Shown here in pieces: positions 35,688 through 60,483 of a DNA stretch of 64,000 bases. The stretch comes from Streptomyces sp. NBC_01314 (GTDB lineage: Bacteria; Actinomycetota; Actinomycetes; Streptomycetales; Streptomycetaceae), in assembly GCF_041435215.1 (NCBI RefSeq), contig NZ_CP108394.1, positions 5,394,001 to 5,458,000 on the forward strand. Direction: 5' to 3'. Numbering within the stretch: the stretch's first letter is position 1; every line of letters begins with the position of its first letter. Position numbers and translations under genes: made by a program. Below the pieces are notes generated by a model, which had not been told where the DNA came from, made no database searches, and worked only from the letters and a program-made list of their open reading frames with translations.

Positions 35688-35810
35688 GGTGGTCGGCCTG
35701 CCGGGCGGTCGCCCCGGCCGAGCAGTCGCCCCTGCCGGGCGGAGCCGGTCGTACGGCGGCTCGGACACGCGGGCGTTCGGCGGCGACGGTGTCCCGTGCA
35801 GCCCTACTTG

Positions 35811-35816
35811 TAATCT
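35811..35816 (+). promoter_or_regulatory. -10 box and probable leaderless start of the megasynthase
   Basis: TAATCT lies exactly 7 nt before the GTG at 35824, with no purine-rich ribosome site between them. A matching -35 hexamer is weak. Confidence 0.5.
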
Positions 35817-35823
35817 CCGCACG

Positions 35824-38800
35824 GTGGAGAGATCGAATGAAGGTTTGAGCGGAGACGCGTCGACGCTGCTGGACGTGCTGCTGACGGCGGCGCGGGAGGC
35901 CCCCGGCCAGACCATCGTGCACGTCCGGGGAGACGGCGTCGAGCACACGGTCACCTTCGCCGAACTCCGCGACGACGCACTGCGCGTGGCGGGCGGACTG
36001 ATAGCGGCGGGCGTGACGCCGGGCACCGCGCTGCCGCTGGTCGCCGACCGGGGTGACGCCTTCCAGCCGATGTTCTGGGGCGCGCTGGCGGCAGGGGCCG
36101 TACCCGTCCCCCTCGCCCCGGAGCCGCGCCGGATCGGCCCGGTGTGGGAACTCCTCGGCAGGCCCCCCGTCGTGGTGGACGAGGGCACGCTCACCGTCGT
36201 CACCGACATGCGCGACATGAGCGATATGCGCGACATGCACGACATGCACGACATACGCGACGGTCAGGACCGACAACCCGCGTCCGCGATACGGGTGTTG
36301 AAGCTGGCCGACCTCCGTCGTGGTCGTCCGCCGCAGCGCCTCCCCCACCCCGCCCCCCACGAGGTCGCCTTCCTCCAGTTCTCCTCCGGCAGCACCGGCG
36401 CCCCCAAGGGGGTGGAGCTGACCCACGCCGGGGTCCTCGCCAATCTTCGGCAGATCCGCGCCGCGATGGCGATCAGCGCCGACGACGTGCTCGCGACCTG
36501 GATGCCGTACTTCCACGACATGGGTCTCATCGGCACGCATCTCGTCCCCATGGCCGCGCGTCTGAAGCAGATACGGATCGAACCGCTGTCCTTCGCGAAG
36601 CGGCCCGTCCTGTGGTTCGAGGCCGTCGCCCGTCACCGCGCGACCCTTCTCTCGGCCGCGAACTTCGCCCTCGCCCTCGCGGTCCGCCGTGTCCCGGCCA
36701 CCGCGCTCACCGCCCTCGACCTCAGCTGCGTACGCCTGCTGCTCGTCGGTGCCGAGCCCATCGCGCCGCGCGTCTGGCGGGAGTTCACGGCCCGGACGGC
36801 TCCGGCGGGGCTGGACCCGCGCGCCCCGCTGCCGGTGTACGGGCTGGCCGAGGCGACCCTCGCGGTGACCGTACCGCCGCTGGGCGAGACCGCGACACCG
36901 TTGGTGCTGGACCGGGCCGCGCTCAGCCGGGGGCGGGTGGCCGAGACCGAACCGGGGCCGCACGCAGTGGAGTTGATGGACCTGGGGCGGCCGGTCGAGG
37001 GGTGCCAGGTACGGATCACCGGTGGCTCCGGCGGGCCGTCGGGTGAGCTGCGGGTCGGGCATGTGGAGGTACGAGGGCCGCAGTTGGGGCGCGGGTACCA
37101 CCGGGCGCCCGAGGCCGGCGCGGAGACGTTCGGCGGTGACGGCTGGCTGCGTACCGGTGACCTCGGCTTCCTGCGGAACGGACGGCTGTGCGTCACCGGG
37201 CGCCACAAGGACGTGGTGTTCGTCAACGGCCGTACGTTCCACGCGTCGGACCTGGAGGAGACGGTCGCCGCGACGCCGGGGCTGCCGCCGGGGGCCGTGG
37301 CCGTCGTGGGGTCCACCGATCCGGACGGCGGGGGCGAACGGGTCGCCGCCTTCGTGCAGTGGGTGCGCCCGGCCCCCTCGGCCGCCGCCCCGGTGCTCCG
37401 CGCCGCAGCCGGCCGGCTGCGGGAGGTTCTCGGCCACGACGACGTCCGGGTACTGCCGTTGCCACCGGGGGCGTTCGCCCGTACCACCAGCGGGAAACTG
37501 CGCCGGGGGGTGCTGCGGGCGCGCTTCGAGGGTGGGGCGTACGCGGCTGTCGAGGCGCGTTGGGCCGACGCGACGGTCGCGGTGGTGGGCCGCGCGGCCG
37601 GGGTGGGAGGGGTCGTCCCCCGTTCACTGCGGGAGGTTCAGGAGTCGGTACGGGGGGTGTGGGCGCGTGTTCTGGAGGTGCCCGTGTCCGACGTGGGGCT
37701 TCGGGAGCGGTTCTTCGACCTCGGGGGGTCCTCGCTCAAGGCGATGGCTGTGCTTGCCGGGCTGGAGGACGTGTTCGCGGTGACGGTGGAGCCGCGTGCG
37801 CTGCGGGACCACGACACGGTGGTGGGGTTGGCCGGGTATGTGCTGGGGTTGTTGGGGGAGCGGGGCCCGGGGGTGGATGGGCGCCTCATGGGTCGGGGGG
37901 AGCTGTCCGGGGGCGGCCACGGGTCCGTCCTCGTGGCTGATCGCGCCCACGCGGCGGAGCCGCAGGTGACCGGGGGTGATGTCGAGGCCGGTTCCGCTGC
38001 CGCTCACCATGCCGACGCCGATCCCGGGCCCGGCCACCATCGCGGTTCCGGTGGTTCCGGTGGTTCCGTCGGAGCTGTCGCCATCCTCTCGGCGGCCTGT
38101 CGGTTCCCGGGGGTCGAGACACCCGAAGGGTTCTGGGAGTTGCTGGCCGCCGGGGGTGACACGGTCGGGGGCCTGCCCGAGGGCCGGTGGGAGGACGGGC
38201 CCCGGCCGGGTTCCTTCCTTGCCGATCCCGCGGCCTTCGACGCCGGGTTCTTCGGTATGGACGACGCGGAGGCACGGGCCACCGACCCGCAGGCGCGGAT
38301 CTTTCTGGAGCTGGCCCATGAGGCGCTGGAGCGTGCCGGGTACGCGGGGCCCCGCCGGGCCGGACGCCGCGTCGGGGTCTTCGCGGCGGCCGGTGACAGC
38401 GGGTACCGCGAGATCCTGGCCGAGGCCGCCGGCGGTGACCTCGCCCGCCACCCGGCCGCCCTCACCGGCAACCTCCCCAACCTGATCGCCGCCCGCGTCT
38501 CCCAGGTACTGGACCTGCACGGCCCCGCCCTGGCCGTCGACACGGCCTGCTCCTCCGCCCTCGTCGCCCTGCATCTGGCCCGGCGCAGCCTGCTGTCCGG
38601 CGAGTGCGACCTCGCGGTGGTCGGCGGAGTCAACCTGGGCCTGACCCCGACCGGCCACCGCCTCCTCGAAGCGACGGGCGCGCTGTCGCCGACCGGCCGG
38701 TGCCGCGCGTTCGCCGCCGACGCGGACGGTTTCGTACCGGGAGAGGGCGGCGCCACTCTCGTCCTCGCCCGTCTCGACGACGCCCGCGCCGCCGGCGACC

Positions 38801-41800
38801 CGGTCCTCGCCCTCGTACGCGGTACGGCGGTGAACAACGACGGCCGTTCCCTCGGCCTCCTCGCCCCCGCCCCGCGCGGGCAGCGTGAGGTGATCGGCCG
38901 GGCGTACGAGGAGTGCGGTGTCGATCCGGCCGACGTGTCGTACGTCGAGGCGCACGGCACGGGTACGCCGATCGGTGACCCGGTCGAGGCGCGGTCGCTC
39001 GGCCAGGCGTTCCCGCCCCGCGCCGACGGGGTCCCGCGCCGGCTCGGCTCGGTCAAGGCGAACGTCGGGCACCTCCTCAACTCGGCCGGCATGCCCGCCC
39101 TCGTCAAGGTCGCCCTCGCCCTCTCCCACCGCCGTCTCCCGCCCTCCCTCCACGCCACCTCACCCGCGCCCTTCCTCGCACACACCGCCCCCGGCTTCCG
39201 TCTGGTCACCGAGCACGCGGAATGGACCGGCACGGAGGGCCGCCCGCTGACCGCCGGCGTGAACTCCTTCGGCTTCGGCGGCACCAACGCGCACGCGGTT
39301 CTGGAGGAGGCGCCGAGGGGGTTGGCAGGGGCGATGAGCGGGGCCGTAGGAACGACGAGCGGGGCTGTGGGTGTGACGAGCGGGGCTGTGGGTGTGACGG
39401 GTGGGGCCGTGGGTGCGACGGGTGGGGCCGTGGGTGTGACGGGCGCCGGAGCCGGCGCTGATCCCCGGGCCACCGGCGGTCCGCACCTTCTGACCCTTTC
39501 CGCCCGCACCGCCGGTGCACTGCGCGTCGCCGTCGCCGAGTTGGCCGCGCATCTGCGGGCCCACCCCGAACTGGACGAGGGTGACGTGTGCGCCGGCGTC
39601 AACACCGCCCGGGACGAGAGGCCGTACCGGATCGCCGTGGTCGCGGACGGCGACCTCGCGGAGCGGCTCGAAGCGGTGGGGAAGCGGGATTCCGCGAGCT
39701 TCGCGACGATGGGACCCGTACGGGCTCGGCCCCGCACGGTGTTCGTCCTTCCCGGCCAGGGCGCCCAACGCCCCGGGCTGGGCCGGGAGTTGTACGGTTC
39801 TGCGCCCGTGTTCCGTGACGTCCTGGACGAGGCCTCGTCCCTCACCGGGCCGGTGCTCGGCCGCACCCTGGCCGCGTGGTGTCTGGACGAGGACGCCGAC
39901 CCCGCCGACCTGGCCCGGACGGAGGTGACGCAGCCGCTGCTGGTCGCGTTCGGGGTGGCGTTGGCAGGGCAGCTGGCCGCCTGGGGGGTGGCGCCGGACG
40001 CGGTCGTGGGGCACAGCGTCGGCGAGATCACCGCCGCGTGCGTCGCCGGGGCGCTGCCCCTGGCCGAGGCGGTCGGGTTCGCCGCCGAACGCGGACGCCT
40101 GGTGGGCGGGCTCGCCGCGCCGGGTGCCATGGCGGCCGTACGGGGTGACGAGGACACCGTCGCCGCCGTGGTCGCCGAGTCCGACGGCACGCTCTGCGTG
40201 GCCGCCGTCAACTCACCCTCGCAGGTGGTGCTGGCGGGCGAGGCGGAGGCCGTCGACCGGGCGGTCACGGCCCTCGCCGCCCGGGGAGTGGCCGCCCGCC
40301 GCCTCCGCGTCTCGCACGCCTTCCACTCCCCGATGCTGAACCCCGTACTCGACCCCCTCCACAGCGCGGCGAAGGCCCTGACCGTGCACCCGGCCACCGT
40401 TCCGATGCTGAGCACGGTCACCGGCCGGTGGGGCCCCGACCTGACCCCCGGTTCCGGCTACTGGCGCGACCACGCGATCCGCCCCGTCCGCTTCGCCGGC
40501 GCCGTCGCCCGACTCCTCGACGAGGGCTACGACACGTTCGTCGAACTCGGCCCCGGCGCCACCCTCTCCACCCCCATCCTCGCCACGGCCACCGCACATC
40601 CCGGCGTCACACCCTCCGACGTGACCGTCCTGCCCGCACTGCCCGCACTGCCCGCCACCACGGACGGCCCGGAAGCCGGTGCCGGGGCAGGGGCGTTGCT
40701 CGAAACCGTCGGTCGGCTCTGGTCCCGTGGGGCCCTGCTGGCCCCCACAGCTCCGGCCTCTCCGGCCATGGCACGGCGACGGGTGCCCGTCCCCACGTAC
40801 CCGTTCCAGCGCGGCCACCACTGGCCGCAGCGCCTCGACACGATGCCCGAGCCCGGTACGGCACCTGCGCCGCGTACGACACCCGGGCCGCGTACGACGC
40901 CCGAGCCCAGGGCAACACCCGGACCGCGTACGACACTTGACTCACCCGACGACCTTCCCATCGCGCGGCCCCTCCTCTGGCGCGACGCCCCGCTGACCGC
41001 CGCCCCCGACCCCCGCGTCGTACGTCTGACCGGCGCCGACACCCCGCTCCGCCGGGCCCTCGCCGACCGGCTCACCGGGCGCGGAGTGACGGTGCTGCGG
41101 TCAGGGTCGGAATCGGGGTCGGCGCCGACGATGACGCCGAACCGGTCCGAAGCCCCGGTGGAAGTCGCAGAGGCGGCGGCCGCCCCGGAGGTTGTGCTCT
41201 GGTTCGCCGGTGACGCCACGGGCCCGGAGGCGGAGACCAGCACCGCCGTCTCCGCCCTGCGCGAGGTGCTGCCCTCGCTCGGCACGACCCCCACCCGCCT
41301 GCTGCTGATCACGGAGAACGCGTACAGCACCGGCGACACCAACAGCACCAACGGAAGCAGCGGTGGAGACCTCGCCACCGGCCCCCGGTCCCGTCCCGCC
41401 CAGGCCCTCCTGCACGGCTTCGCCCTGGCCCTCCCCGAGGAACACCCGGGACTCTCCTCCCTGAGCATCGACCTGTCTTCCCAGGACCCGCTCGACACTC
41501 AACTCAGCTCGTTGGAACGCGAGTTGAGCGTCGCCCATCCCGCGGCACCCGGCGCGGGCGGAACCGTGGCCTGGCGGACGGGTCGCCGACTCGCTCGTAC
41601 AGCCGTAGCCACCACCACCCCGGGCTCCCCCACGCCACTCCCCCCGAACGGCACCTACCTGATCACCGGCGGCGCGGGCGGCCTCGGTTCCGCGCTCGCC
41701 CGTGACCTCGCGGAACGCGGCACTCCCACCCTTGTCCTCACCGGCCGCACGGCCACCCCGCCCCGCGCCCTGCTCACCGACCTACGCGCCCTCGGCGCCC

Positions 41801-44800
41801 GCGCCCGCTACCAGGCGGCCGACATCACCGACGCGACCGACATCGACGAACTCGTCGCCGGACTGCCGCCGTTGGACGCCGTGTTCCACGCGGCGGGCAC
41901 GGCCCGCCCCGGCAGCCTGCGCGGCAAGCCCGACGACGAGATCGAGGCCGTACTCGCGGCGAAGGTGCGCGGCACGACCCTCCTCGCCGAAGCGCTGCGC
42001 CGGCACGGCCAGGAGGACGCCGTGTGCGTCGCCTTCTCGTCCGTGTCCGCCGTACTGCCCGGCCTCGCCGGCGCCCTCGGCGACTACGCCGCCGCCAACT
42101 CCTTCCTCGACGCCTTCGCCACCGCCGAACGCGCCGCCGGCCGCCCCTGGCAGACGATCGCCTTCGGCCCCGTCACCGACACGGGCCTGGCGAGCGGGAC
42201 GACCCCGCACACCCGGCTCCGACACCACGGCCTCGCGCCCATGACCGTACGGGCCGCCCTCGCGGGTCTCCACGCGGCCGTCGGCCTGGACGCGGCACAC
42301 ATACAGGTGACGGGCACAGGTGCCGCAACGAACCGCGCGACCAGCCACGACGGACCCGCAGCCGCCACCGGACAGCCCCTCCCGAGCCATCAGGCGCCCA
42401 CGAGCACCGGCACCCCCGCTTCCTCCCAGGTCACCGCCCTCATTCGTCGCCTCCTCGCCGACGCCCTGCACCGCTCCCCGCAGGACATCGGCGACGACGA
42501 ACAGTTCCTCACCCTGGGCCTGGACTCCCTGACCGCCATCGACCTCGCCCGCCGCCTGGAACGCGAACTCGGCCGCCCCCTCCCAGCCACCCTCCTCTTC
42601 GAACACCGCACGCTCGGCGAACTGGCCACCCACCTGGCCACCACCCCACCGACAGAGACGCCGAGCCCGACACCGAGCCCGACGCCGACGTCAAGTTCGA
42701 CGCCCGGCGTCACCTCGCACCCCCTCACCCCCCTCCAACTCGCCTTCCACACCACCGAAACCCTTCACGAGGGCATCACCGCCTACGGCTACGTACGCCA
42801 GAGCATCAGCGGTCCCCTCGACACCGCCCTCCTCGGCCGGGCACTCGCCCGCCTCGCCGCCCGCCACCCCATGCTGCGTATGCGGTTCACCGGCGAGGCC
42901 GGCGCGCGCCCACGCCAGTACGCCGCCCCCGCCGGACCCGTGGACACGGCACCCCGCTGGTACGAGGTACGGGAACCGCACGACCTTCGACAACTGGAAC
43001 AGGAGCTGTGCAACCGCCCGTTCGACCTGACGACGGAAGACCCGGTACGAGCCGTCCTCGTCCACGACCGTGACGACGCACACCTCGCCCACCTGCTCCT
43101 GGTCGTCCACCACGCCGCCGCCGACGGCTTCAGCCTCAAGCTCCTCGCCGAGGAACTCTGGTCGCTCTACACGGCCCTGGTGCGCGGGGAGACACTTCCC
43201 CAACTCCCGCAGCCAGGAGCCGAGTTCGCCGACTACACAGCCGCCATGACCGCCGAACGCCAGTCCCCGGCGTACGCGGAGGATCAGCGGTACTGGCGCG
43301 ACCGCCTGGCCGACCGCCTGGCCGACGGCACCGCTTCCTCCCTCTCCCTGCCGTACGACGGCGACCCCGAAGCACCCCCCGCCCCGCCCCTCACCCACCA
43401 CCGCACCGGCATCGACGAGGCGCTGACCGCCGCACTCCGCGAGACGGCCGCGCGGCACGGAGTCTCGTTGTTCCACCTGCTGCTGGCGGTGTACGGCCGT
43501 TGTCTGGCGCGGTGGAGCGGACGGCGGTCCGTCGCGGTCAATGTGGCGCGGTCCCGAAGGGAGTTGCCGATCGCCGGCATCGACCGTCTGGTGGGGCCGC
43601 TGGCCGACACCCTGCCGGTGTTCGTGGACGTCGACCCCGACGAGCCGGCCACCGCGCTCGCCGACCGGCTGCGCCGCATCTGGGGTGAGGCCGAGGCCCA
43701 CGCGACCCTGAGCAGCACCGACTTCGCCCGGCTGCTGTCCGGACTCCGGCCCGCCACGGGCCCGGCCCCGCGCACGGCCGCCGGGGCGGGGTTCAGTTTC
43801 GCCCGCTTCCCAGTCGTCCACGGCTCCGACTGGCCGGTCACCGTCACCCCGACGGCCGCGGCCACCGCCTCCGCCGCCACCCGGCTCGGGCTCCTCTGCT
43901 GGGAGGCCGACTCCGCCCTGTGCCTGTCGTGGAACCACCCGGCCCGGCTCTTCCGCCCCGAGACCGTACGCCGCCTCGCCGACGAGTACGTCACCGAACT
44001 GCGCGCCGCCGTCGCGGGGCCCTCAGCCACTCCGGCCGGACCGGTCGGCGGCGGCATCGTGGAGCGCCTGTGCGCACAGTTCCGGGCCACACCCGGGTCC
44101 ATCGCCGTCGACACCGGCGCCCCGGGCACGCCGCCGCTCACCTACGCCGCCCTCGACACCGCCTCCGCCGCCCTCGCCGCCCGACTGCGCGCCCACGGCG
44201 TACGCCCCGGCGACCTGGTCGGACTCCTCACCGAACCGGGCGGCACGGACACGGTCACCGGAGTCGTCGGCATCCTGCGGGCGGGCGCCGGCTGGGTACC
44301 GCTGGACGCCACCCACCCCACCGCCCGGCACCGGGACCAGTTGTCCCGTACGGGAGTGCGCGTACTGGTCTGCGACCCGACGACCCACGAGGCGGCCACC
44401 GGCCTGGACGGCGTCACACCGGTCCCGGTGTCCGAGCCGTCCGACACCACACCGCCGGCCGTCTTGGAGAGCGACGCCCCCGACCCCGAAGCCATCGCCT
44501 ACGTCATCTTCACCTCCGGCTCGACGGGCCGCCCCAAGGCCGTCCCCATCACCCACCGGTCGATGACGAACTACCTCGACTGGTCCCTGGCCACGTTCGG
44601 CTACGGCCCCGGCGACCGGCTCGCGCAGACCGCGTCGGCCTGTTTCGACGCCTCGGTACGGCAGTTGCTGGCCCCGCTGCTGGTCGGCGCCACGGTGCAC
44701 ACCCTCTCCCGCGACCTGCTGCGCGACCCCGAGGCCCTGCTCGACCGCGTCGTGGCGGACCGGATCACGGTGTGGAGCTCGGTCCCGACGCTGTGGGAAC

Positions 44801-47800
44801 GGCTGCTGACCGCCGCCGAGGAACGCACCCGGCAGCACGGCACGCCCCCCGACCTCTCCGCCCTGCGCTGGGTCCACGTGGGCGGCGAGGCCCTGCCCGC
44901 GGCCCACGTACGCCGCTGGTTCGACCTCCTCACCACCCCCGTCGGCGACAGTCCGCGCCCCCGGCACACCCCGCACCCCCACCGGATCGCCAACCTCTAC
45001 GGCCCCACCGAAGCCACCGTCAACGCCACCTGCCACATCATCGACACCCGCCCCGCCGACGACATACGCCACCTCCCCATCGGCCGCCCCGTCGCCGGCA
45101 CCGAACTGACCGTGATCGGCGAGGACGGACGCGAACGCGCCCCCGGTGAACCCGGCGAACTCCTCATCGCCGGAACCGGTCTCACCCCCGGCTACCTGGG
45201 CGATCCCGACCTCACCGCCGCCGCCTTCACCGAACGGGACGGCCGCCGCTGGTACCGCAGCGGCGACCGCGTCCGCCGTACGGCCGACGGGGTACTGGAG
45301 TTCCTGGGCCGACTCGACGACCAGGTCAAGGTCCGCGGCCACCGCGTGGAACTCGGTGAGGTCGAGGCCGCCCTGCTCACCCATCCGGGCGTGGCCCGCG
45401 CGGCCGTACTGCTGCGTGACGGGCGGCTGGAGGCGTACGTCGAGCCGAGGACCGGCACGCACACCCTCGCGCCCCACACCCTCGCGCCCCACGACGTCGA
45501 CCCCCGTCGGCTCGACCCCCGCGAGGTGCGCGCCTTCCTCTCCCGCACCCTCCCCCCGTACATGCTCCCCGCCCGCGTCCACTCCCTCCCGGCCCTCCCT
45601 CTGACCGGCACGGGCAAGATCGACCGCAACCGCCTCGCTCCCCGCGCCGAAGCCGCCCCGAGCACGCCGACCGGCATGCCGTGCACGCCCGCTGAGCCCC
45701 CGCGCACGCCTCCCGCGGCCCCCACCGAACACCTGCTGGCGCGCATCTGGTCCGAACTGCTGGACGTACCGGAGTCCGAGATCAGCCGCCAGGACGACTT
45801 CTTCGCACTCGGCGGCGACTCCATCACGGTGCTGGAACTGTTCTCCCGCCTACGCCCCGAACGCCCCGCCCTGCCACGCCCGACCGCCGTCTACACGCAC
45901 CGCACCCTGGCCGCCCTGGCGGCGAGCATCGACTCCACCACCGTCACCGCCACCGCGCCCACTCCACCCGAGAGCCAGCAGACCGAACACGCCCCCACGC
46001 CCTACCCCCTCACCCCCTCCCAACAGGGCTTCCTCCTCGCCGACGCCCTCGCCACCAGCACACCCACCACACCCGGTAGCCCCGGTAGCCCCGGCGCCAA
46101 CCCCGCCTGGCTGGCCCGCTTCCGTATCCACGGCCCCCTGGACCCGGACCTGTTCCAGCGCTCCGTCGACGTCCTCATGGCCCGGCACCCCATGCTCCGC
46201 ACGGTCTTCCCGGCGGGCGCCCGCCCACCCGTGCAGCAGGAACTCCCGGCCTCGCTACGGCTCCCCGTGGAGACGGAGGCCCTGGCCCACCCCGGCCTCC
46301 TGGAGGAACGGGCCGCCGAGGAGGCGAACCGCCGCTTCGAACCCTGGGCCTGGCCCCTGCTGCGCCTGCGCCTCTTCACCGTCGCGCCGGACGAACACGT
46401 ACTCCTCGTCCACGCCCACCACCTCATCGGCGACGGCTACAGCGCGGCTCTCCTCACCCGCGAACTCCTCACCGTGTACGGCCGTTTCGAAGACGGCCTC
46501 CCCCACGGCCTGGAGCCACTGCACTCCACCTTCCATGCACACGCACTCCACCGGACCGCACCCCGCCGGCCCACGACCCCGGAGACCGAGGCGTACCGCG
46601 CCCGCCACCTCACCCCCTACACCCCACCCGTCCTGCGAGCACCCCGCCCCGACGGCACCGCCCCCGCCTTCCACACCACCACCTTCACCCTCGACGCCGA
46701 CCGCACCCACGCCCTGCGCCACCTCGCCCAGAGCACCGGCACCACGCTCCACGCCCCGGTCCTCACGGCGTACCACCGCGCCCTCACCACCCTCACCGGC
46801 CGACGCGACCTGGTCCTCGGGCTGGCCGTCACCGGCAGGGACGAGACCACGCGGGACGCACATCGCGTCTTCGGCCCGTTCGCCGAGGCGGTGGCACTCC
46901 GCCCGGCGCTCCCGTCCGACGGCGAACGCGCGGCCCCCGACTTCGTCGAGGACCTCCGCCGTATCGCCACTGAGTCGATCGCGGCCCGCACCGCCGGCCC
47001 CCTGGACCTCCGAACACCCCAAGGCCTGCCCCGTACCGCCCAGTTCTTCTTCACGTTCCTCGACTTCAGCGCCCTGGGCACGCCCCCCGACACCACCCTG
47101 ACCCTCCGGGCCGACGACACCGGGACGGAGCTGGCCCCGCCACCGGTGGGCACCGATGTCTTCCTGGCCGCACGCCCCTCCCCGAACGGCGAAGGCCTCC
47201 GCGTCACGGCCCGCGCGCCGGCAACCGCGCTCACATCCGATGAACTCGACGCTTTCGCAGGAGAGTTGAGGGCGCAGCTGGAGCAAGCCGCCCGCCGCGA
47301 CGACATCCCCGCCCCCACTCAGTCCGCCTCGCCCACCCCGGCCGCTCCATCCATCTCGTCCGCCTCATCCACTCCATCCATCTCGTCCACTCCATCCATC
47401 CCGTCCGCCGCTTCCCTCGACGCGGCCCTCATCGGCTACCTCCCGGCCCCGCACCACCTGGCTGCCTTCGCCGGTCTCCCCCCGCACGCGGCCCCCAGCC
47501 GCGAGCAGATCCGCGCCCTCCTCTTCCCGGACGGCGGGGCCAGACTCCTGGAGAGCATCACCACCCCCCTCGGCAGATCCGGCTTCGTCTCACTCCCGCT
47601 CTTCGCCGACGAGCTGACCGGCCCGCTCCCCGTCGGAGCCCCGGCCCCTGTGACCACCCTGGCCACCCTGACCGCGCGCGCCGTGGACCACGCCGCGTCC
47701 CTCGGCGCCCGCTGTGTCTCCCTGGCCGGCATGATCCCGTCCCTCACCGGCTACGGCTACGACGTCCTCCGGGAGACCGCGGCGACGACCACGACGCCCG

Positions 47801-48648
47801 CCACCAGGCACGCGACCACCACCCTCACCACCGGGCACGCGACCACGACCGTCGCCGTGGTCAAGACCGTCCGCACCGCCCTTGAGGCGACCGGCCGCGA
47901 CCTCGGCGAACTCACCCTCGCCGTCGTCGGCTGCGGTTCCATCGGCACATCGTCCCTGCGCCTGCTCCTCGCCCTCAGCCCCCACCCACCGGCCCGGCTC
48001 CTGCTCTGCGATGTGCCCGGCAGCGCCCCCCGCCTCCAGCAGCCGGCCGCCGAACTGACGGCCGACCACCCCACCATGGCCGTACAGATCGTCGAGTCGG
48101 CCGACCCTCGAAGCCTCCCCGCCGAGGTCTACGCCACGGCCGACGTCATCGTCACGGCGGTCAGCGGCGGCCCGACCCTGCTGGACGTCGACCGGCTGCG
48201 GCCCGGCACGATCGTCGTGGACGACTCCTTCCCGCACTGTTTCGACACCGGGCGGGCCCTGGACCGGATGCGGCACGAGCAGGACGTACTGATCGTCGGG
48301 GGTGGCCTGCTGGCCCTGGACCCCACCGAGACCCACCTGTCACCGGACCTCCCGGCCGCCGCCCTCACCGGCCACGCCACCGCCCGCACCCAGCAGCACC
48401 TCGCGCTCCACCTCCCCGGCACCCTCGCCTCGTGCCGTCTGGAGTCCCTCCTCCACGCCCACCTCACCGCCCCGGACTCCGGTACGGAACTGCCCCTGAT
48501 CCACGGCCTGGTCGACCTCCCCCGCGCCCTCGCCCACTGGGACGCCGCCGAAGCCGCCGGAGTCCGCCCGGCCCCCCTCCACCTCCTTGACCACACCATC
48601 CCTCCGGAGGCCCTGAGCGCCCTGCCCCCACCACAGCGGTCGCGCTGA
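35824..48648 (+). CDS. Single-protein FAAL-PKS-NRPS megasynthase ending in an AAR-like reductase domain
   Basis: A 4274-aa multidomain enzyme, visible as: fatty acyl-AMP ligase (about 13-580; FSSGSTGAPKGV, MPYFHDMGLIG typical of FAALs), ACP (Ser637, DLGGSSL), KS (about 750-1163; Cys909 in DTACSS, His1044 in HGTGTP, His1083 in NVGH), AT (about 1215-1640; Ser1398 in GHSVGE, HAFHS ending at 1502, predicting malonyl-CoA), KR (GGAGGLG near 1947, Ser2075, Tyr2088), ACP (Ser2235), condensation domain C1 (HHAAADG 2429-2435), adenylation domain (TSGSTGRPKA, NLYGPTEAT, YRSGDRV, GTGKIDR), PCP (Ser3333), second condensation domain C2 (HHLIGDG 3532-3538), then a domain of about 390 aa (3867-4258) resembling cyanobacterial acyl-ACP reductase (LTTGHATTTVAVV, VVGCGSIG, Cys4204 in LASCRLE). 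No TE, DH or ER is seen. Predicted product: 3-hydroxyacyl-amino acid aldehyde or further product, inferred only. GTG 35824 is the preferred start; a frame to 35689 exists. Confidence 0.92.
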   Translation: MERSNEGLSGDASTLLDVLLTAAREAPGQTIVHVRGDGVEHTVTFAELRDDALRVAGGLIAAGVTPGTALPLVADRGDAFQPMFWGALAAGAVPVPLAPEPRRIGPVWELLGRPPVVVDEGTLTVVTDMRDMSDMRDMHDMHDIRDGQDRQPASAIRVLKLADLRRGRPPQRLPHPAPHEVAFLQFSSGSTGAPKGVELTHAGVLANLRQIRAAMAISADDVLATWMPYFHDMGLIGTHLVPMAARLKQIRIEPLSFAKRPVLWFEAVARHRATLLSAANFALALAVRRVPATALTALDLSCVRLLLVGAEPIAPRVWREFTARTAPAGLDPRAPLPVYGLAEATLAVTVPPLGETATPLVLDRAALSRGRVAETEPGPHAVELMDLGRPVEGCQVRITGGSGGPSGELRVGHVEVRGPQLGRGYHRAPEAGAETFGGDGWLRTGDLGFLRNGRLCVTGRHKDVVFVNGRTFHASDLEETVAATPGLPPGAVAVVGSTDPDGGGERVAAFVQWVRPAPSAAAPVLRAAAGRLREVLGHDDVRVLPLPPGAFARTTSGKLRRGVLRARFEGGAYAAVEARWADATVAVVGRAAGVGGVVPRSLREVQESVRGVWARVLEVPVSDVGLRERFFDLGGSSLKAMAVLAGLEDVFAVTVEPRALRDHDTVVGLAGYVLGLLGERGPGVDGRLMGRGELSGGGHGSVLVADRAHAAEPQVTGGDVEAGSAAAHHADADPGPGHHRGSGGSGGSVGAVAILSAACRFPGVETPEGFWELLAAGGDTVGGLPEGRWEDGPRPGSFLADPAAFDAGFFGMDDAEARATDPQARIFLELAHEALERAGYAGPRRAGRRVGVFAAAGDSGYREILAEAAGGDLARHPAALTGNLPNLIAARVSQVLDLHGPALAVDTACSSALVALHLARRSLLSGECDLAVVGGVNLGLTPTGHRLLEATGALSPTGRCRAFAADADGFVPGEGGATLVLARLDDARAAGDPVLALVRGTAVNNDGRSLGLLAPAPRGQREVIGRAYEECGVDPADVSYVEAHGTGTPIGDPVEARSLGQAFPPRADGVPRRLGSVKANVGHLLNSAGMPALVKVALALSHRRLPPSLHATSPAPFLAHTAPGFRLVTEHAEWTGTEGRPLTAGVNSFGFGGTNAHAVLEEAPRGLAGAMSGAVGTTSGAVGVTSGAVGVTGGAVGATGGAVGVTGAGAGADPRATGGPHLLTLSARTAGALRVAVAELAAHLRAHPELDEGDVCAGVNTARDERPYRIAVVADGDLAERLEAVGKRDSASFATMGPVRARPRTVFVLPGQGAQRPGLGRELYGSAPVFRDVLDEASSLTGPVLGRTLAAWCLDEDADPADLARTEVTQPLLVAFGVALAGQLAAWGVAPDAVVGHSVGEITAACVAGALPLAEAVGFAAERGRLVGGLAAPGAMAAVRGDEDTVAAVVAESDGTLCVAAVNSPSQVVLAGEAEAVDRAVTALAARGVAARRLRVSHAFHSPMLNPVLDPLHSAAKALTVHPATVPMLSTVTGRWGPDLTPGSGYWRDHAIRPVRFAGAVARLLDEGYDTFVELGPGATLSTPILATATAHPGVTPSDVTVLPALPALPATTDGPEAGAGAGALLETVGRLWSRGALLAPTAPASPAMARRRVPVPTYPFQRGHHWPQRLDTMPEPGTAPAPRTTPGPRTTPEPRATPGPRTTLDSPDDLPIARPLLWRDAPLTAAPDPRVVRLTGADTPLRRALADRLTGRGVTVLRSGSESGSAPTMTPNRSEAPVEVAEAAAAPEVVLWFAGDATGPEAETSTAVSALREVLPSLGTTPTRLLLITENAYSTGDTNSTNGSSGGDLATGPRSRPAQALLHGFALALPEEHPGLSSLSIDLSSQDPLDTQLSSLERELSVAHPAAPGAGGTVAWRTGRRLARTAVATTTPGSPTPLPPNGTYLITGGAGGLGSALARDLAERGTPTLVLTGRTATPPRALLTDLRALGARARYQAADITDATDIDELVAGLPPLDAVFHAAGTARPGSLRGKPDDEIEAVLAAKVRGTTLLAEALRRHGQEDAVCVAFSSVSAVLPGLAGALGDYAAANSFLDAFATAERAAGRPWQTIAFGPVTDTGLASGTTPHTRLRHHGLAPMTVRAALAGLHAAVGLDAAHIQVTGTGAATNRATSHDGPAAATGQPLPSHQAPTSTGTPASSQVTALIRRLLADALHRSPQDIGDDEQFLTLGLDSLTAIDLARRLERELGRPLPATLLFEHRTLGELATHLATTPPTETPSPTPSPTPTSSSTPGVTSHPLTPLQLAFHTTETLHEGITAYGYVRQSISGPLDTALLGRALARLAARHPMLRMRFTGEAGARPRQYAAPAGPVDTAPRWYEVREPHDLRQLEQELCNRPFDLTTEDPVRAVLVHDRDDAHLAHLLLVVHHAAADGFSLKLLAEELWSLYTALVRGETLPQLPQPGAEFADYTAAMTAERQSPAYAEDQRYWRDRLADRLADGTASSLSLPYDGDPEAPPAPPLTHHRTGIDEALTAALRETAARHGVSLFHLLLAVYGRCLARWSGRRSVAVNVARSRRELPIAGIDRLVGPLADTLPVFVDVDPDEPATALADRLRRIWGEAEAHATLSSTDFARLLSGLRPATGPAPRTAAGAGFSFARFPVVHGSDWPVTVTPTAAATASAATRLGLLCWEADSALCLSWNHPARLFRPETVRRLADEYVTELRAAVAGPSATPAGPVGGGIVERLCAQFRATPGSIAVDTGAPGTPPLTYAALDTASAALAARLRAHGVRPGDLVGLLTEPGGTDTVTGVVGILRAGAGWVPLDATHPTARHRDQLSRTGVRVLVCDPTTHEAATGLDGVTPVPVSEPSDTTPPAVLESDAPDPEAIAYVIFTSGSTGRPKAVPITHRSMTNYLDWSLATFGYGPGDRLAQTASACFDASVRQLLAPLLVGATVHTLSRDLLRDPEALLDRVVADRITVWSSVPTLWERLLTAAEERTRQHGTPPDLSALRWVHVGGEALPAAHVRRWFDLLTTPVGDSPRPRHTPHPHRIANLYGPTEATVNATCHIIDTRPADDIRHLPIGRPVAGTELTVIGEDGRERAPGEPGELLIAGTGLTPGYLGDPDLTAAAFTERDGRRWYRSGDRVRRTADGVLEFLGRLDDQVKVRGHRVELGEVEAALLTHPGVARAAVLLRDGRLEAYVEPRTGTHTLAPHTLAPHDVDPRRLDPREVRAFLSRTLPPYMLPARVHSLPALPLTGTGKIDRNRLAPRAEAAPSTPTGMPCTPAEPPRTPPAAPTEHLLARIWSELLDVPESEISRQDDFFALGGDSITVLELFSRLRPERPALPRPTAVYTHRTLAALAASIDSTTVTATAPTPPESQQTEHAPTPYPLTPSQQGFLLADALATSTPTTPGSPGSPGANPAWLARFRIHGPLDPDLFQRSVDVLMARHPMLRTVFPAGARPPVQQELPASLRLPVETEALAHPGLLEERAAEEANRRFEPWAWPLLRLRLFTVAPDEHVLLVHAHHLIGDGYSAALLTRELLTVYGRFEDGLPHGLEPLHSTFHAHALHRTAPRRPTTPETEAYRARHLTPYTPPVLRAPRPDGTAPAFHTTTFTLDADRTHALRHLAQSTGTTLHAPVLTAYHRALTTLTGRRDLVLGLAVTGRDETTRDAHRVFGPFAEAVALRPALPSDGERAAPDFVEDLRRIATESIAARTAGPLDLRTPQGLPRTAQFFFTFLDFSALGTPPDTTLTLRADDTGTELAPPPVGTDVFLAARPSPNGEGLRVTARAPATALTSDELDAFAGELRAQLEQAARRDDIPAPTQSASPTPAAPSISSASSTPSISSTPSIPSAASLDAALIGYLPAPHHLAAFAGLPPHAAPSREQIRALLFPDGGARLLESITTPLGRSGFVSLPLFADELTGPLPVGAPAPVTTLATLTARAVDHAASLGARCVSLAGMIPSLTGYGYDVLRETAATTTTPATRHATTTLTTGHATTTVAVVKTVRTALEATGRDLGELTLAVVGCGSIGTSSLRLLLALSPHPPARLLLCDVPGSAPRLQQPAAELTADHPTMAVQIVESADPRSLPAEVYATADVIVTAVSGGPTLLDVDRLRPGTIVVDDSFPHCFDTGRALDRMRHEQDVLIVGGGLLALDPTETHLSPDLPAAALTGHATARTQQHLALHLPGTLASCRLESLLHAHLTAPDSGTELPLIHGLVDLPRALAHWDAAEAAGVRPAPLHLLDHTIPPEALSALPPPQRSR
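36205..36258. repeat. 9-bp repeat array within the FAAL domain
   Basis: Six in-frame units, mostly GACATG(C/A)(G/A)C, encode D-M-R/S/H repeats (about residues 128-145). They sit in a surface loop before the adenylate motif. Confidence 0.8.
39334..39438. repeat. Five 21-bp repeats in the KS-AT linker
   Basis: Five consecutive units resembling ACGAGCGGGGCTGTGGGTGTG encode T-S/G-G-A-V-G-x (about residues 1171-1205). They preserve the frame and lengthen the linker between the ketosynthase and the acyltransferase. Confidence 0.9.
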
Positions 48649-52547: not shown

Positions 52548-54350
52548 TCACGGCGCGTTGACCAGGTGGTGCGGCGGTACCTGGACCGTGCGGGCACCCG
52601 GGGTGCCGCCCAGGACCACCTTGCGGAGAGCGATGTTGTTCTTGTGGTTGGTCTCCTGGAGACGGTTCTCCGGGTTGGCGATGACCTGGATGTAGTACGT
52701 GCCGTTCGGCAGGTCGGTGATCTCGAAGGACTGGCCGGGACGGTACTGGGTGTACGTGTCACCGGAGCCGACGTCGAGGACCTCACGCACCGAGATGGCG
52801 TCCTGCGAACCGCACGCGGTGGACAGGTCGGTGTTCTGCGGGTCCCAGTTGGCGTTCTTCACCGTGTAGTCGATGGCGTCGGTGTTGGCCAGGCAGAACG
52901 CCTCCTTGCCGGAGCGGACCTGCTTGGTCTTGTCCGCGCTGAGCAGGCGGTAGCTGGCGAAGTCCGTGAAGTGCCAGTGCTCGTGGCCCTCGCGCGGGTC
53001 CCACTCCATGGTGCCGGTGGGGGTGTAGCCGATCTGCTTGCCCTTGGCGTCGTAGAAGTACTGGTACGCGTCCATCAGGTCGGCGCCGGGCTTGCGGAAG
53101 CCGTCGACGACGAGGGGCGCGGGGCCCGCGTTCCAGACGTTCGCGCTGAAGGCGAGGTAGTCCTTGCCGGCTACGTCGCCGTCCTCGCCGTCGGTGATGG
53201 CGATGTCCCAGGCGGGCAACGACCGCAGGTCCGGCTTGGGGACGTTCTTCGGGACGCTCGCCTTGCCGGTGGGCCGCTTGGCGTTGGCCTTCAGCGCGGA
53301 GGCGATGCGGGAGCCGTCGGTGTGGCCGGCGCCGTCGCCCAGGTGCTTGGCGCGACCCCGGTCGACGAGGGCGTAGGGCAGCTCGGGCGGGGTGGGAGCG
53401 TCGGCGCCGCGCGGGCCGTAGTGGTGGCTGTCCGGGGCCGGCTGTCCGGCCGGGGCCGACTGCGTGGAGTGGTCGCCGCCGTGGCCACCACCGTGGCCGC
53501 CGCCGTGGTGGGCGGAGGACGACGAGGGCTTCGACGTGGTCAGACCCGCGCCGCCCTCGCCCGCGTCGGGATCCTCCCGCACCGTCACCTTGATGGTCGG
53601 CCGGTTGTCGGGCATGCCGAACAGGTCGCGGTACTTCTTCGCCACCCGCACCTGGGCGGTGTACTCGCCCACCGGCAGGTCCACCCCGCCCCTTTCGTAG
53701 TCCCAGCTGGTGGTGTTGGTCGCCCAGCCCTTCTCGGTGCCCCACACGGAGCCGAGCGTCCACGGGTTGCCGGAGCAGCTCTGCGGATAGTGGTTGGTGG
53801 CCGGGGCGTCCGGGCGGATCCGGCCCGAGGCGTTGCTCGGGCAGAAGTTCCCCTTGGTCTTCACCACCTCGGTCCCGGCCGCGTTCTTGACCGAGATCTC
53901 CAGGAAGCCGGTGAGCCCGGAGAAGTCGTCGACCGTCCCCGCGGGCAGGGTCTTCGTCTTCACGGTCTTGCCGTTGCGGAGGATCTGCTTGGCGACGATC
54001 GGGTCCTTGTACGACTTCCGCGTCACCTGGAACTCCAGGGGCGCGTTGTCGACCGTGACATACGTGCCGAGCTGCAGGCTGACGCCCTCGGACCACTCGT
54101 ACCGGGTGAGCGTCACGGAGTTCGACGCGGCGATCAGCTTGAGCTGCGGCTTCCCGGGCGTCGCGGCGGGCGCGGCACCGGCGCCGGGGGCGGCACCGGC
54201 CACGGCGGCCACCACGGTGAGCGACGCCAGGGCGGCGAGGCCGGGGCGCTTCAGGCGACTGCGGCGGTCCTCACCGCCGGTCGAGCCGGTCGAGCTCGTC
54301 GCACTGGTCGCACCAGTCGGGCTGGATGGATTGGTCATCTGGCTGGTCAT
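52548..54350 (-). CDS. Secreted lysyl oxidase-like copper amine oxidase
   Basis: A 600-aa exported protein. The signal region contains RRSRLKRPGLAALASLTVVAAVAGAAPGAGA. The C-terminal lysyl oxidase domain carries the copper motif HEHWH (His456, His458, His460) in EGHEHWHFTDFASYRLL. A linker with HGGGHGGGHGGDH repeats separates an N-terminal beta domain (about 50-270) from the oxidase domain (about 360-600). Family knowledge: these copper/quinone enzymes oxidise primary amines to aldehydes; Streptomyces members act on extracellular substrates. A role in the cluster is unproven. The ATG at 54350 is supported by GAGGAA. Confidence 0.86.
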   Translation of the reverse strand: MTSQMTNPSSPTGATSATSSTGSTGGEDRRSRLKRPGLAALASLTVVAAVAGAAPGAGAAPAATPGKPQLKLIAASNSVTLTRYEWSEGVSLQLGTYVTVDNAPLEFQVTRKSYKDPIVAKQILRNGKTVKTKTLPAGTVDDFSGLTGFLEISVKNAAGTEVVKTKGNFCPSNASGRIRPDAPATNHYPQSCSGNPWTLGSVWGTEKGWATNTTSWDYERGGVDLPVGEYTAQVRVAKKYRDLFGMPDNRPTIKVTVREDPDAGEGGAGLTTSKPSSSSAHHGGGHGGGHGGDHSTQSAPAGQPAPDSHHYGPRGADAPTPPELPYALVDRGRAKHLGDGAGHTDGSRIASALKANAKRPTGKASVPKNVPKPDLRSLPAWDIAITDGEDGDVAGKDYLAFSANVWNAGPAPLVVDGFRKPGADLMDAYQYFYDAKGKQIGYTPTGTMEWDPREGHEHWHFTDFASYRLLSADKTKQVRSGKEAFCLANTDAIDYTVKNANWDPQNTDLSTACGSQDAISVREVLDVGSGDTYTQYRPGQSFEITDLPNGTYYIQVIANPENRLQETNHKNNIALRKVVLGGTPGARTVQVPPHHLVNAP

Positions 54351-54760
54351 CGGTTCCTCGTCTGCGAGTGCCATGGTCAGTGGCATCGGACTGGACAGCC
54401 CACGGACGACTACCGACCGCACAGGCGCACCCCAATACGCCTCGGGCCGGGCCGGACTCGATCCGTCCGCCCTGTGAGCAATCTGTGAGACCGGTAAACG
54501 GTGGGCGCGGGTTGCCTGTTGAGGCGGAATTCGACGAAACGCGCGGTGAGCACGCGTCAGACACATGCCCGAGCATCCCTGCGGGACCGGCTCCAAGTCC
54601 CCGGTGAATCCGCGCAGGAGCGTCACACAGCCTGCACACAGCTCTGAGAATGCCTCGTTAGCGTTGCTGACCGCTCGATCCGCTCGATCCCGCGTGCGAA
54701 CGTGACGCGACCGGGCCGCGGCCCGGCGGGTCGACGGCATGCCACCACAGAAAGACCCCG
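54351..54760. other. Divergent intergenic region
   Basis: No gene is supported. The right part, near 54620-54670, contains CACACAGCCTGCACACAGCTC followed by an AT-richer CCTCGTTAGCGTTGC that may hold a promoter for the zinc-ribbon gene. Confidence 0.4.
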
Positions 54761-55867
54761 ATGGACTACTGCTCCTCATGTCGCCGACATCTCAACGGTG
54801 CCCTCGTGTGCCCCGGCTGCGGCGCCTACGCGCCCGACATAGCCCCGGCCACGATCGACAGCCGCGTCGCCCCGTCCCGGCCCACCGGGACGACGACCGG
54901 GTCGGTGATGGTCCCGCTGCCGACGGCGACCTGGGGGTACGGGGCGACGGACGGTAGTTGGCTCGACGGGACGGTGGCGGACGGGACGGCGACCGAGGGG
55001 TTCGCGGGGGACGGGTTCACGTCCGAGGGGTTCGCGGGGGACGGGTTCACGGCGGACGGGTTCGCGGGGGACGGGTTCACGGCGGACGGGCCGACGTTCG
55101 GCGGCAAGGACGTCGAAGTGGACGCGAAGGCCAACGCCGACGCCGACGCGGTCGCCATCACCGGCATGGGCATGGGCGTGGACGTGGACGTGGAGGGTGT
55201 CCCGGCGGTGCCGCGGGGGCGGGCCGCGCGGCGGCGTCAGGTGGCGCGGTGGAAGAAGAACCAGCGCCGGGCCGTGGTCGCGACCGCTGTCGCGCTGGTC
55301 GGCGGCGGTCTGACCGTCCTGGGGATGGACCGGCAGTCCACCGACCGCACCCAGGCGGCCACGGCACCGGACGCCGAGAGCCTGGGCGCCGTCGAGGAAC
55401 AGGGCTCGCAGCGCGGCCGTACGCCGACGACGGAGACCGACGACGCGCGGCGCACCTCGGACACCCCCGCCACCACGTGGTCCCCGTCCGGCGACACCTC
55501 GCGCGACCGTTCCGCGGCGGACAGGGCGGACTCCCGCGCGAACCACCCCAACTCGCCCCGCACGGCGTCGGCCACGCCGTCCGCCAAGCAGGCGCGGACC
55601 GGCTCCTCCACCGACGGGACGGCCACCGACACCGCCACCCTGACGGACGAGACGACCACACCCCCGGCCACAGACGGCTCCGGTTCCTCGGCGGACACGG
55701 GGACGAGCACGGGCTCGGACACCGGCACCGGGACCGACACCGGTGCGGAGTCGGGAAGCGGCACCGGCTCGGGCACGGGCACGGGCACGTCGGACGGTTC
55801 CGGCTCCGACACGGCTACGACGTCACCCTCGGGGCTGTGCCTGCTCGGGATCGTCTGCGTGAGCTGA
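54761..55867 (+). CDS. SCO2400-like zinc-ribbon membrane-associated protein
   Basis: A 368-aa protein starting MDYCSSCRRHLNGALVCPGCGAY, with a CxxC...CxxC zinc ribbon, as in the Streptomyces SCO2400 family. Three 30-bp repeats encode FAGDGFT(S/A)-type units. A single hydrophobic helix (RAVVATAVALVGGGLTVLG, about 168-186) is followed by a long Ser/Thr/Gly/Asp-rich tail (SGSGTGSGTGTGTSDGSG) that ends LCLLGIVCVS with a Cys pair. Function unknown. The tail suggests a cell-surface or extracytoplasmic stalk. Confidence 0.75.
   Translation: MDYCSSCRRHLNGALVCPGCGAYAPDIAPATIDSRVAPSRPTGTTTGSVMVPLPTATWGYGATDGSWLDGTVADGTATEGFAGDGFTSEGFAGDGFTADGFAGDGFTADGPTFGGKDVEVDAKANADADAVAITGMGMGVDVDVEGVPAVPRGRAARRRQVARWKKNQRRAVVATAVALVGGGLTVLGMDRQSTDRTQAATAPDAESLGAVEEQGSQRGRTPTTETDDARRTSDTPATTWSPSGDTSRDRSAADRADSRANHPNSPRTASATPSAKQARTGSSTDGTATDTATLTDETTTPPATDGSGSSADTGTSTGSDTGTGTDTGAESGSGTGSGTGTGTSDGSGSDTATTSPSGLCLLGIVCVS
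55001..55090. repeat. Three 30-bp tandem repeats in the zinc-ribbon gene
   Basis: Units at 55001-55030, 55031-55060 and 55061-55090 begin TTCGCGGGGGACGGGTTCAC; the last two are identical and the first differs slightly (GTCCGAGGGG at its end). They keep the reading frame. Confidence 0.9.
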
Positions 55868-56493: not shown

Positions 56494-56580
56494 CGGTCTC
56501 CTCCTGCCTGTCTGGCCTGTTCGGCCCGTCCGGCCTTCATGGGCCCTCACCCTACGTCGAGATTGCGCCATGCATGGAGA

Positions 56581-56593
56581 GTGCAGGATGCAC
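56581..56593. promoter_or_regulatory. Candidate operator of the MarR regulator
   Basis: GTGCA-GGA-TGCAC is a perfect inverted repeat. Further TGCA units follow (GATGCACGATGCAC to about 56613) in the divergent intergenic region, so a multi-site operator is plausible. Confidence 0.65.
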
Positions 56594-56669
56594 CATTGAT
56601 GCACGATGCACTACCTGTGTAGCGTGCATTTCCATCTCCCTCCCCTTCCCCCCACCAGGAGATGCCGAG

Positions 56670-58004
56670 ATGAGCCAGGTCGAGATGAACGGGAACCCGC
56701 CGGCCCAGCCGACTGAGTCGAACCAGACGAACACGAACCAGACGAGCAGGAACGACCAGCCCCACCCCGACACAGGCCCGGACGACGAGGTGGTCCGGCT
56801 GCCGATGACCAGCGACGGCCCCCTGGACCCGCCCGCCGCATGGGAGCGGCTGCGCGAGCGGTGCCCGGTGGCCACGGTCGAGTTGCCGAGCGGCGACAGG
56901 GCGAAGTTCTTGAGCCGGTACGACGATGTCCGCGCCCTCCTCTCCGACCCCCGCTTCGCCCGCCCGCGCGCCGGGGACGACAGCGCCCGCCTCTCCGCCG
57001 ACGGCTCGGGCGGCGTCGCGGCCGACGCGTCCCCCGAGTACGCGCTGTCGATCCCGGAGACCGGCGAGCCGCATCTACGGTGGCGGCGCCAGGTCGGCCG
57101 GTACTTCACCGCGAAACGCATGGCGGCCCTGCGCCCCGGCATGGCGAGGATCGCCGAGTCACTGCTCGACGACATGATCGAGCGCGGGCAGCCCGCCGAC
57201 CTCAAGGCGGCCCTCGGCTTCCCGCTCCCGGTGTACGTCATCTGCGACCTGCTCGGCGCGCCGGCCGAGGACCGCGACCGCTTCTCGCACTGGTCCGACG
57301 CGTTCCTGAACGTCAGCCGGTTCTCGAAGGAGGAGACGCGGGCGGCGTTCACGGAGTTCGCGCGGTACATGGCCGAACTCGTCGCGGCGAAGCGGGCCGA
57401 GCCGGGCGAGGACCTGCTCAGCATGCTCATCGTGGACGGGGCCGCGCTGCCGGAGGCGGACCGGCTCACCGACGCCGAACTCCTCGCCACCGGTATGGGG
57501 TTGCTGGTGGCCGGCCACGAGACCACCGCGAACATGATCGGCAAGATGGCCGCTCTGCTGCTGGCCGACCGCGGCCGGTGGGAGCAGCTGCTCGCCGACC
57601 CCTCCCTCGTCCGTACGGCGGTGGAGGAGGTACTGCGCTTCGACGCCAATCTCAGCGCTTTCGGGATGCGGCGTTATCTGAGCGAGGACGTGGACCTCGA
57701 CGGGGAGTCGCTGCCCGGCGGCACCACCGTGTTCTGCGGCATGTCCTCCGCCAACCGGGACGATCGCGTGTTCGCCTCCCCCGCCGAGATGGACCTGACC
57801 CGCAGCCCCAACCCGCACCTCACCTTCGGCGCCGGCCCCCACTCCTGCCTCGGTCAGGCCCTCGCCCGCACCGAGCTGCAGGTCGTCCTCGAAGTCCTCC
57901 TCCGCAAACTGCCCACCCTCGAACTCGCAGTCCCCGCCAACGAGTTGCGGAAGGTCGAGGGCCTCCTCGTGGGGGGCCTGTGCGAGGTACCCGTGCACTG
58001 GTGA
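56670..58004 (+). CDS. Cytochrome P450 monooxygenase (first)
   Basis: A 444-aa soluble heme monooxygenase. The I-helix is GLLVAGHETTANMIGK, the ExxR is in EEVLRFD, and the heme-ligating Cys393 lies in FGAGPHSCLGQALA. The N-terminus (to about 60) is a polar Asn/Thr/Pro extension (PAQPTESNQTNTNQTSRNDQ). Substrate unknown. The ATG follows AGGAG at a 9-nt spacing. The ferredoxin gene lies 99 bp downstream and is its probable electron donor. Divergent MarR regulation is likely. Confidence 0.92.
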   Translation: MSQVEMNGNPPAQPTESNQTNTNQTSRNDQPHPDTGPDDEVVRLPMTSDGPLDPPAAWERLRERCPVATVELPSGDRAKFLSRYDDVRALLSDPRFARPRAGDDSARLSADGSGGVAADASPEYALSIPETGEPHLRWRRQVGRYFTAKRMAALRPGMARIAESLLDDMIERGQPADLKAALGFPLPVYVICDLLGAPAEDRDRFSHWSDAFLNVSRFSKEETRAAFTEFARYMAELVAAKRAEPGEDLLSMLIVDGAALPEADRLTDAELLATGMGLLVAGHETTANMIGKMAALLLADRGRWEQLLADPSLVRTAVEEVLRFDANLSAFGMRRYLSEDVDLDGESLPGGTTVFCGMSSANRDDRVFASPAEMDLTRSPNPHLTFGAGPHSCLGQALARTELQVVLEVLLRKLPTLELAVPANELRKVEGLLVGGLCEVPVHW

Positions 58005-59196: not shown

Positions 59197-59267
59197 CCTG
59201 GCCTCCGCGATAAACGGGGACTGCGCCCCGGTGCCGAAGCCCCGATGTTATCGTCGAGGCAGAAAAC

Positions 59268-59281
59268 GGGGAGTACTCCCC
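59268..59281. promoter_or_regulatory. Perfect 14-bp palindrome, TetR operator
   Basis: GGGGAGTACTCCCC, flanked by AAAAC on the left and ATATTC on the right, lies between the TetR and patatin genes. Confidence 0.75.
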
Positions 59282-59323
59282 ATATTCCTGTCCCCCTCCG
59301 GGACGCGGCACGGGAGGTACAGC

Positions 59324-60322: not shown

Positions 60323-60483
60323 CGGCCCAGCACCCGCGGCCGGGACCCGCAACCGCGACTCACCACCCACGGCCCACACCTCGAACCCGGTGTTCAGGAG
60401 CGCACCCCCACCACGCACCACCCGCCACCCGCCACCCGCCACCCAGCGAACCGCGAACGCGAACCGAAAGGCGACGACCAGCC

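Follow-up and report, generated by a model that had tools for sequence, protein, structure and literature searches.

A terminal domain with the AAR/TAD fold in a single-gene Streptomyces assembly line, a candidate cysteine-dependent release oxidoreductase

The domain considered here, named AARL (AAR-like), ends a combined polyketide synthase (PKS) and nonribosomal peptide synthetase (NRPS) encoded in Streptomyces sp. NBC_01314 (contig NZ_CP108394.1, positions 5,394,001 to 5,458,000; this whole stretch of 64,000 nucleotides is called the window). Its closest solved relative is the carmabin TAD, which we take to mean terminal amidation domain (a guess) and which belongs to a pathway with a terminal amide as product. 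Structures of this TAD are available (PDB 9e4s, 9e4u, 9e4x, 9e50, 9e56). The terminal 'amidotransferase' domains of HcaD (hectoramide) and VatR (vatiamide) are probably of the TAD kind, judged by position and producer group; each has a peptidyl carrier protein (PCP) directly before it and a terminal amide as product (PMC10949194). The mechanism of the end domains of such amide-ending cyanobacterial NRPSs was called unstudied in the same paper in 2024. A second relative is the fatty aldehyde-forming acyl-ACP reductase of cyanobacteria, AAR (TIGR04058; PDB 6jzq, 6jzu, 6jzy, 6jzz), a stand-alone, NADPH-using reductase that is acylated on Cys294 and has the aldehyde-deformylating oxygenase ADO as its partner. 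In PigE (prodigiosin) and TamH (tambjamine), an AAR-like thioester reductase domain is fused to a transaminase and, as described, there is no PCP or condensation domain in the same protein. The reductase of BurF (malleicyprol) was considered as a parallel and set aside, as it is SDR-type (PMC12304814).

The terminal domain and its relatives

On balance, AARL is probably a chain-release oxidoreductase with the AAR/TAD fold that depends on NAD(H), becomes acylated on a cysteine and gives an aldehyde. The fold, the cysteine column, the cofactor loop, the domain order and the conservation were computed here; the chemical steps, including the acyl-cysteine intermediate, the hydride transfer and the aldehyde, are all ones that we infer. 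The features on which the argument turns are:

46021..47283, + strand: second condensation domain, C2, with HHLIGDG intact and without a carrier protein after it (Pfam, motif)
47284..47415, + strand: linker of about 45 residues, rich in Ser, Pro and Ala, mostly with pLDDT <50 in the structure model (sequence, model)
47416..48645, + strand: AAR-like/TAD-like terminal oxidoreductase domain, AARL (profiles, fold comparison, tree)
47923..47946, + strand: dinucleotide-binding loop VVGCGSIG (alignment, motif)
48433..48444, + strand: Cys4249, the putative acyl-Cys nucleophile, to Glu4252 at Cys+3 (alignment, motif)

An earlier note, made from the sequence, had placed an AAR-like domain at 47422-48597 (+), and this frame is indeed a stop-free run of 392 residues at the end of a 4319-residue open reading frame. 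As it had said, no thioesterase or SDR-type reductase family was reported by Pfam for the terminal region; at E ≤ 1 only weak FolD and 2-hydroxyacid dehydrogenase matches appeared, and no known SDR-type reductase family matched. The NCBIfam models for PigE and AAR scored 41.6 bits (cut-off 850) and 18.7 bits (cut-off 449.7) on the last ~400 residues. No family covered these residues well, and Pfam and NCBIfam by themselves did not yield a usable name. The ornithine cyclodeaminase/SbnB family, given in the note as an alternative, found no support (SbnB, 20.9 bits against a cut-off of 326.9).

A search with a profile of 59 homologues gave matches in the PDB to 9e4s (E = 3.5e-115), PigE (1.7e-16) and AAR (9.6e-10), which puts the relationship to AAR beyond chance. 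Compared profile against profile, the window group and TAD gave an E value of 3.4e-65, the window group and AAR 1.4e-8, and TAD and AAR 2.5e-4; the AAR model TIGR04058 was matched at E ≤ 0.001 by 10 of 28 window-group members. All the motifs named in the note pair with AAR in the alignment (VSLAGMIPSL with SALGGFTSII, TTGHATT with TTGNTHT, VVGCGSIG with VVGATGDIG, VVDDSFP with LIDGGYP, SCRLESLL with ACFAEAML), and its ALIGYLP start fits AAR too, because the aligned fold range begins at model residue 1 and AAR residue 2. The identity to AAR is 19-20%, with the fold, the cysteine that AAR has acylated, the Glu at Cys+3 and the dinucleotide loop in common. No ADO (PF11266) was matched in the host genome; a control in S. 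elongatus was positive. The description as an AAR-like reductive release domain holds to the extent that fold, cysteine and loop are related to AAR, but the closest solved relative is the carmabin TAD. Likewise, the mode of release, put forward as novel, is not wholly new, a relative having already been crystallised from a cyanobacterium, though it is probably an unusual one.

Cysteine, Cys+3 and the cofactor site

The cysteine of SCRLESLL was correctly matched to the acylated cysteine of AAR, as AAR Cys294 falls in the Cys column of a 59-homologue profile, and the equivalent of carmabin TAD Cys2238 is likewise present; the cysteine of PigE and TamH is also shared. The residue number Cys4204 applies only if translation starts 45 codons further in, as it perhaps does; counted from GTG 35689, the cysteine is residue 4249. 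The Cys column is occupied by Cys in 59/59 homologues (window included), and 16 columns are invariant, among them domain Cys338 (= 4249), the three Gly of G-x-G-x-x-G, Asp197 and the DDS motif.

The position three residues after the cysteine separates the relatives. A homologue search with the terminal domain (search 1) gave 128 proteins at E ≤ 0.001 among 8000 candidates scored, and the 120 best were listed; the counts that follow refer to the best matches listed per search (128, 355 and 2992 proteins passed in all). Of the 114 search-1 proteins with this column (121 examined, 7 gaps), 77 have Glu at Cys+3, 36 have Ser and 1 has Pro, whereas the 116 from search 2 (119 examined, 3 gaps) comprise 112 with Ser and 4 with Ala. 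In AAR, it is Glu in 120/120, and in PigE it is Glu as well. Among the search-1 exceptions, P0034, P0066 and P0102 lack SC-x-x-ES and have dissimilar ends of the kind that a frame shift would leave; P0079 is genuinely of the Ser type. An IQ-TREE analysis (65 proteins, 355 columns, six full-length AARs) set apart 22 Glu proteins, P0057 from the Myxococcota among them, with a support of 90 and 37 Ser/Ala proteins with a support of 96. In an earlier FastTree analysis (70 sequences, with AAR and PigE segments), P0057 had fallen into neither group and the remaining 21 Glu proteins had a support of 0.42; as judged from these alignments, the Glu/Ser grouping is strengthened by the later tree.

It is the Glu at Cys+3, common to AAR and PigE, that tips the balance towards reduction, even though it could be mere inheritance. 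The rival reading that the overall likeness to TAD keeps viable is terminal amidation, in which the chain would pass to the cysteine, ammonia would release it as a primary amide and NAD(H) would serve in a net non-redox or structural role. This seems rather unlikely, if still the best placed of the rivals: the window domain lies outside the Ser/TAD group (support 96), it has Glu rather than Ser at Cys+3, and C2 lies between it and the PCP, whereas the 96% identical Moorena relative of the carmabin TAD has the PCP before the domain. In addition, the amidation mechanism is itself called unstudied in PMC10949194, and the carmabin TAD is a putative amidating domain.

The cofactor site differs from that of AAR in detail. 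The NADPH phosphate of AAR is ringed by R189, R193 and R314 (PMC7089970). In the profile alignment, R189 pairs with Gly4111 and R193 with Arg4115, so that one is lost and one kept; R314 is unaligned there, and the phosphate pocket of AAR is not complete in the window domain. The strand that leads into this loop finishes with an Asp in 59/59 homologues, in 113/121 of the larger set from search 1 (Glu 2, Ala 2, Asn 1, gap 3) and in 119/119 of search 2, again among the matches listed. An Asp at the end of such a strand generally favours NADH. It is weaker evidence than the cysteine, because the alignments of AAR disagree at this column: three have a gap for AAR and in one other an AAR Asp slides in. 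TamH, an AAR-like reductase, is described as NADH-dependent (PMC9594044).

Several observations weigh against a reductive release by AARL. The pathway to which the closest solved relative belongs makes a product that ends in a primary amide, and the TTGH and VDDS/DDS motifs are common to the TAD group and not to AAR; the His of TTGH is Asn in 120/120 AARs among the matches listed. The AAR model score given above is far under its cut-off. The position of AAR Tyr247 is Phe in the window domain; a Tyr247Phe variant of AAR kept about half of its activity (PMC7089970). C2 is intact and would be unneeded for release from the PCP, and no activity of any window-group member was found in the literature searched.

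The assembly line and the second condensation domain

The synthase occupies one open frame (4319 codons from GTG 35689 in the list of open reading frames), in which Pfam reports AMP-binding twice, KS, AT, KR, PP-binding three times, Condensation twice and one C-terminal part of an adenylation (A) domain. With active-site motifs, the order in this one gene is FAAL-ACP-KS-AT-KR-ACP-C-A-PCP-C2-AARL. The remaining features are:

35689..48648, + strand: whole single-gene assembly line (Pfam, NCBIfam, motifs)
35848..37542, + strand: FAAL-type (fatty acyl-AMP ligase) loading domain (Pfam AMP-binding; NCBIfam fatty acyl-AMP ligase models match with scores below their cut-offs)
37621..37833, + strand: ACP1, LGGSSL (Pfam, motif)
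38077..39156, + strand: KS, DTACSSA (Pfam, motif)
39739..40590, + strand: AT, GHSVGE and HAFH, the latter a malonyl-type motif (Pfam, motif)
41650..42177, + strand: KR (Pfam, motif)
42439..42636, + strand: ACP2, LGLDSL (Pfam, motif)
42718..44028, + strand: condensation domain C1, HHAAADG (Pfam, motif)
44080..45618, + strand: adenylation domain, ten-residue code DARSHGLVNK (Pfam, code extraction)
45736..45933, + strand: PCP, LGGDSI (Pfam, motif)

The A-domain code was read at the customary ten positions, and no substrate is claimed from it. In the proposed route, FAAL would load a fatty acid onto ACP1, the PKS module would add a malonyl unit and KR would yield a 3-hydroxyacyl chain, which C1 would join to a single PCP-bound amino acid. 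The 3-hydroxyacyl-aminoacyl chain would then pass from the PCP to Cys4249, where bound NADH would reduce it, and an N-(3-hydroxyacyl)-amino aldehyde or a derivative of it would be released. A four-electron reduction to an alcohol, as carried out by some other NRPS reductase domains, or a stand-in hydrolase that forms an acid, appears very unlikely: AAR, a studied reductase of the same fold, yields an aldehyde (PMC7089970), and the conserved dinucleotide site speaks against plain hydrolysis.

C2 was overlooked in the earlier note. The linker between C2 and AARL is too short for a carrier protein, and a structure model of PCP-C2-AARL had a pTM of 0.48 and a poor confidence for the PCP, so that only its low-confidence linker was used and not its arrangement. 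C2 may position the PCP, or work on the thioester or the aldehyde. That C2 is the real release domain, joining the PCP-bound chain to a free amine or an internal nucleophile while AARL does another step or is vestigial, is improbable: HHxIGDG is intact in 108/108 C2 domains extracted, both His and the Asp are kept in 36/36 and no acceptor carrier protein follows, but AARL retains its Cys, Glu, Asp and dinucleotide loop, unlike a vestigial domain, and, among eleven domains compared, C2 shows the lowest conservation. Unlikely too, if less so, is a couple in which AARL turns the PCP-bound chain into an aldehyde and C2, with no carrier downstream of it, forms a second bond from this aldehyde or from the PCP thioester, for instance to a further aminoacyl unit. 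If true, this would be a two-domain reductive release unit, of which no description was found for assembly lines.

Distribution, neighbourhood and significance

Where named, the search-1 relatives listed are mostly from Streptomyces or other actinobacteria; several are annotated as partial NRPS, and in some of them Pfam reports a Condensation domain. Among 392 Streptomyces genomes, host included and with 4 candidates scored per genome, 87 matched at E ≤ 0.001 and 66 below 1e-50, so that strong matches occur in about one sixth of the genomes sampled; the host has one copy. Among 394 genomes from the class, 12 matched at 1e-10, in 4 of 137 genera, and nine of the 12 were Streptomyces. The best 80 of 203 encoding stretches among genome contigs were kept. 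The 114 loci used (L008-L121) include some overlap, as a number of genomes had been retrieved a second time or under another name; AARL was found in 113, C2 in 108 and both in one frame in 108. The A-domain code reads DARSHGL[I/V]NK in 93/93 A domains (92 loci and the window). The domain order is unchanged in all usable synthases (19 of 20 fetched were long enough), in which the mean identity to the window is lowest for C2 (65.2%) and highest for KR (78%); the PCP passed the coverage filter in 9/19 and the terminal domain in 17/19. Across 36 PCP-C2-AARL sequences (one from the window, the others from the 35 of 80 loci with an open stretch of suitable length), the PCP Ser, both His and the Asp of C2, and the Cys, Glu, His, Asp and DDS of AARL are invariant.

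Other members of the wider family were also seen. The cyanobacterial proteins P0210 and P0203 (Moorena) and P0154 (Okeania), with identities of 96, 91 and 69% to the TAD of known structure, have a PCP ahead of the TAD-like domain and belong to the AAR-like family. P0120 (Streptomyces sp. NBC_00683) is a separate 330-residue AAR-like protein of the Ser type. P0132 (Enterobacter cloacae), P0135 (Vibrio vulnificus), P0136 (Burkholderia plantarii) and P0107 (Chitinivorax) are separate proteobacterial TAD relatives of ~430-455 residues, annotated as amino acid adenylation protein or hypothetical.

Upstream of the synthase, on the opposite strand, lies a PAS/GAF/SpoIIE regulator; downstream come a LysR regulator, a PhzF-like protein and an MFS exporter, followed by P450s and a ferredoxin. 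Simple gene calling with clustering brought out no shared neighbour, the commonest gene families occurring in 6/21 upstream and 16/74 downstream stretches, and no trans-acting acceptor for C2 was seen in these stretches. Apart from counter-strand frames inside the synthase, none of the genes downstream of it in the window could be matched over >60% of its length in more than 8 of 94 loci. The gene is best regarded as self-contained. Other genes in the window are:

23686-24780, + strand: Rieske oxygenase like the 3-ketosteroid 9alpha-hydroxylase KshA
52551-54779, - strand: lysyl oxidase domain match (Pfam PF01186)
56574-58004, + strand: P450
58104-58304, + strand: ferredoxin
59099-60322, + strand: patatin-like protein
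3' part of 59245-61662, + strand: second P450

Both P450s scored best, far below the cut-off, with the pentalenolactone synthase model. The accessible parts of the karnamicin and Rhodococcus literature do not describe this synthase, and no papers on the streptomycete synthase, its product or the carmabin TAD were found in the open-licence literature.

Chain release determines what an assembly line makes. Here, a single-gene synthase that is spread through Streptomyces terminates in what is probably a cysteine-based release oxidoreductase, a type distinct from the usual SDR reductase. The relationship also points to the thioester reductase fold as a possible origin of the end domains in amide-ending cyanobacterial NRPSs. 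The Glu/Ser split at Cys+3 divides the NRPS family in two, and it may separate aldehyde-forming from amide-forming domains.
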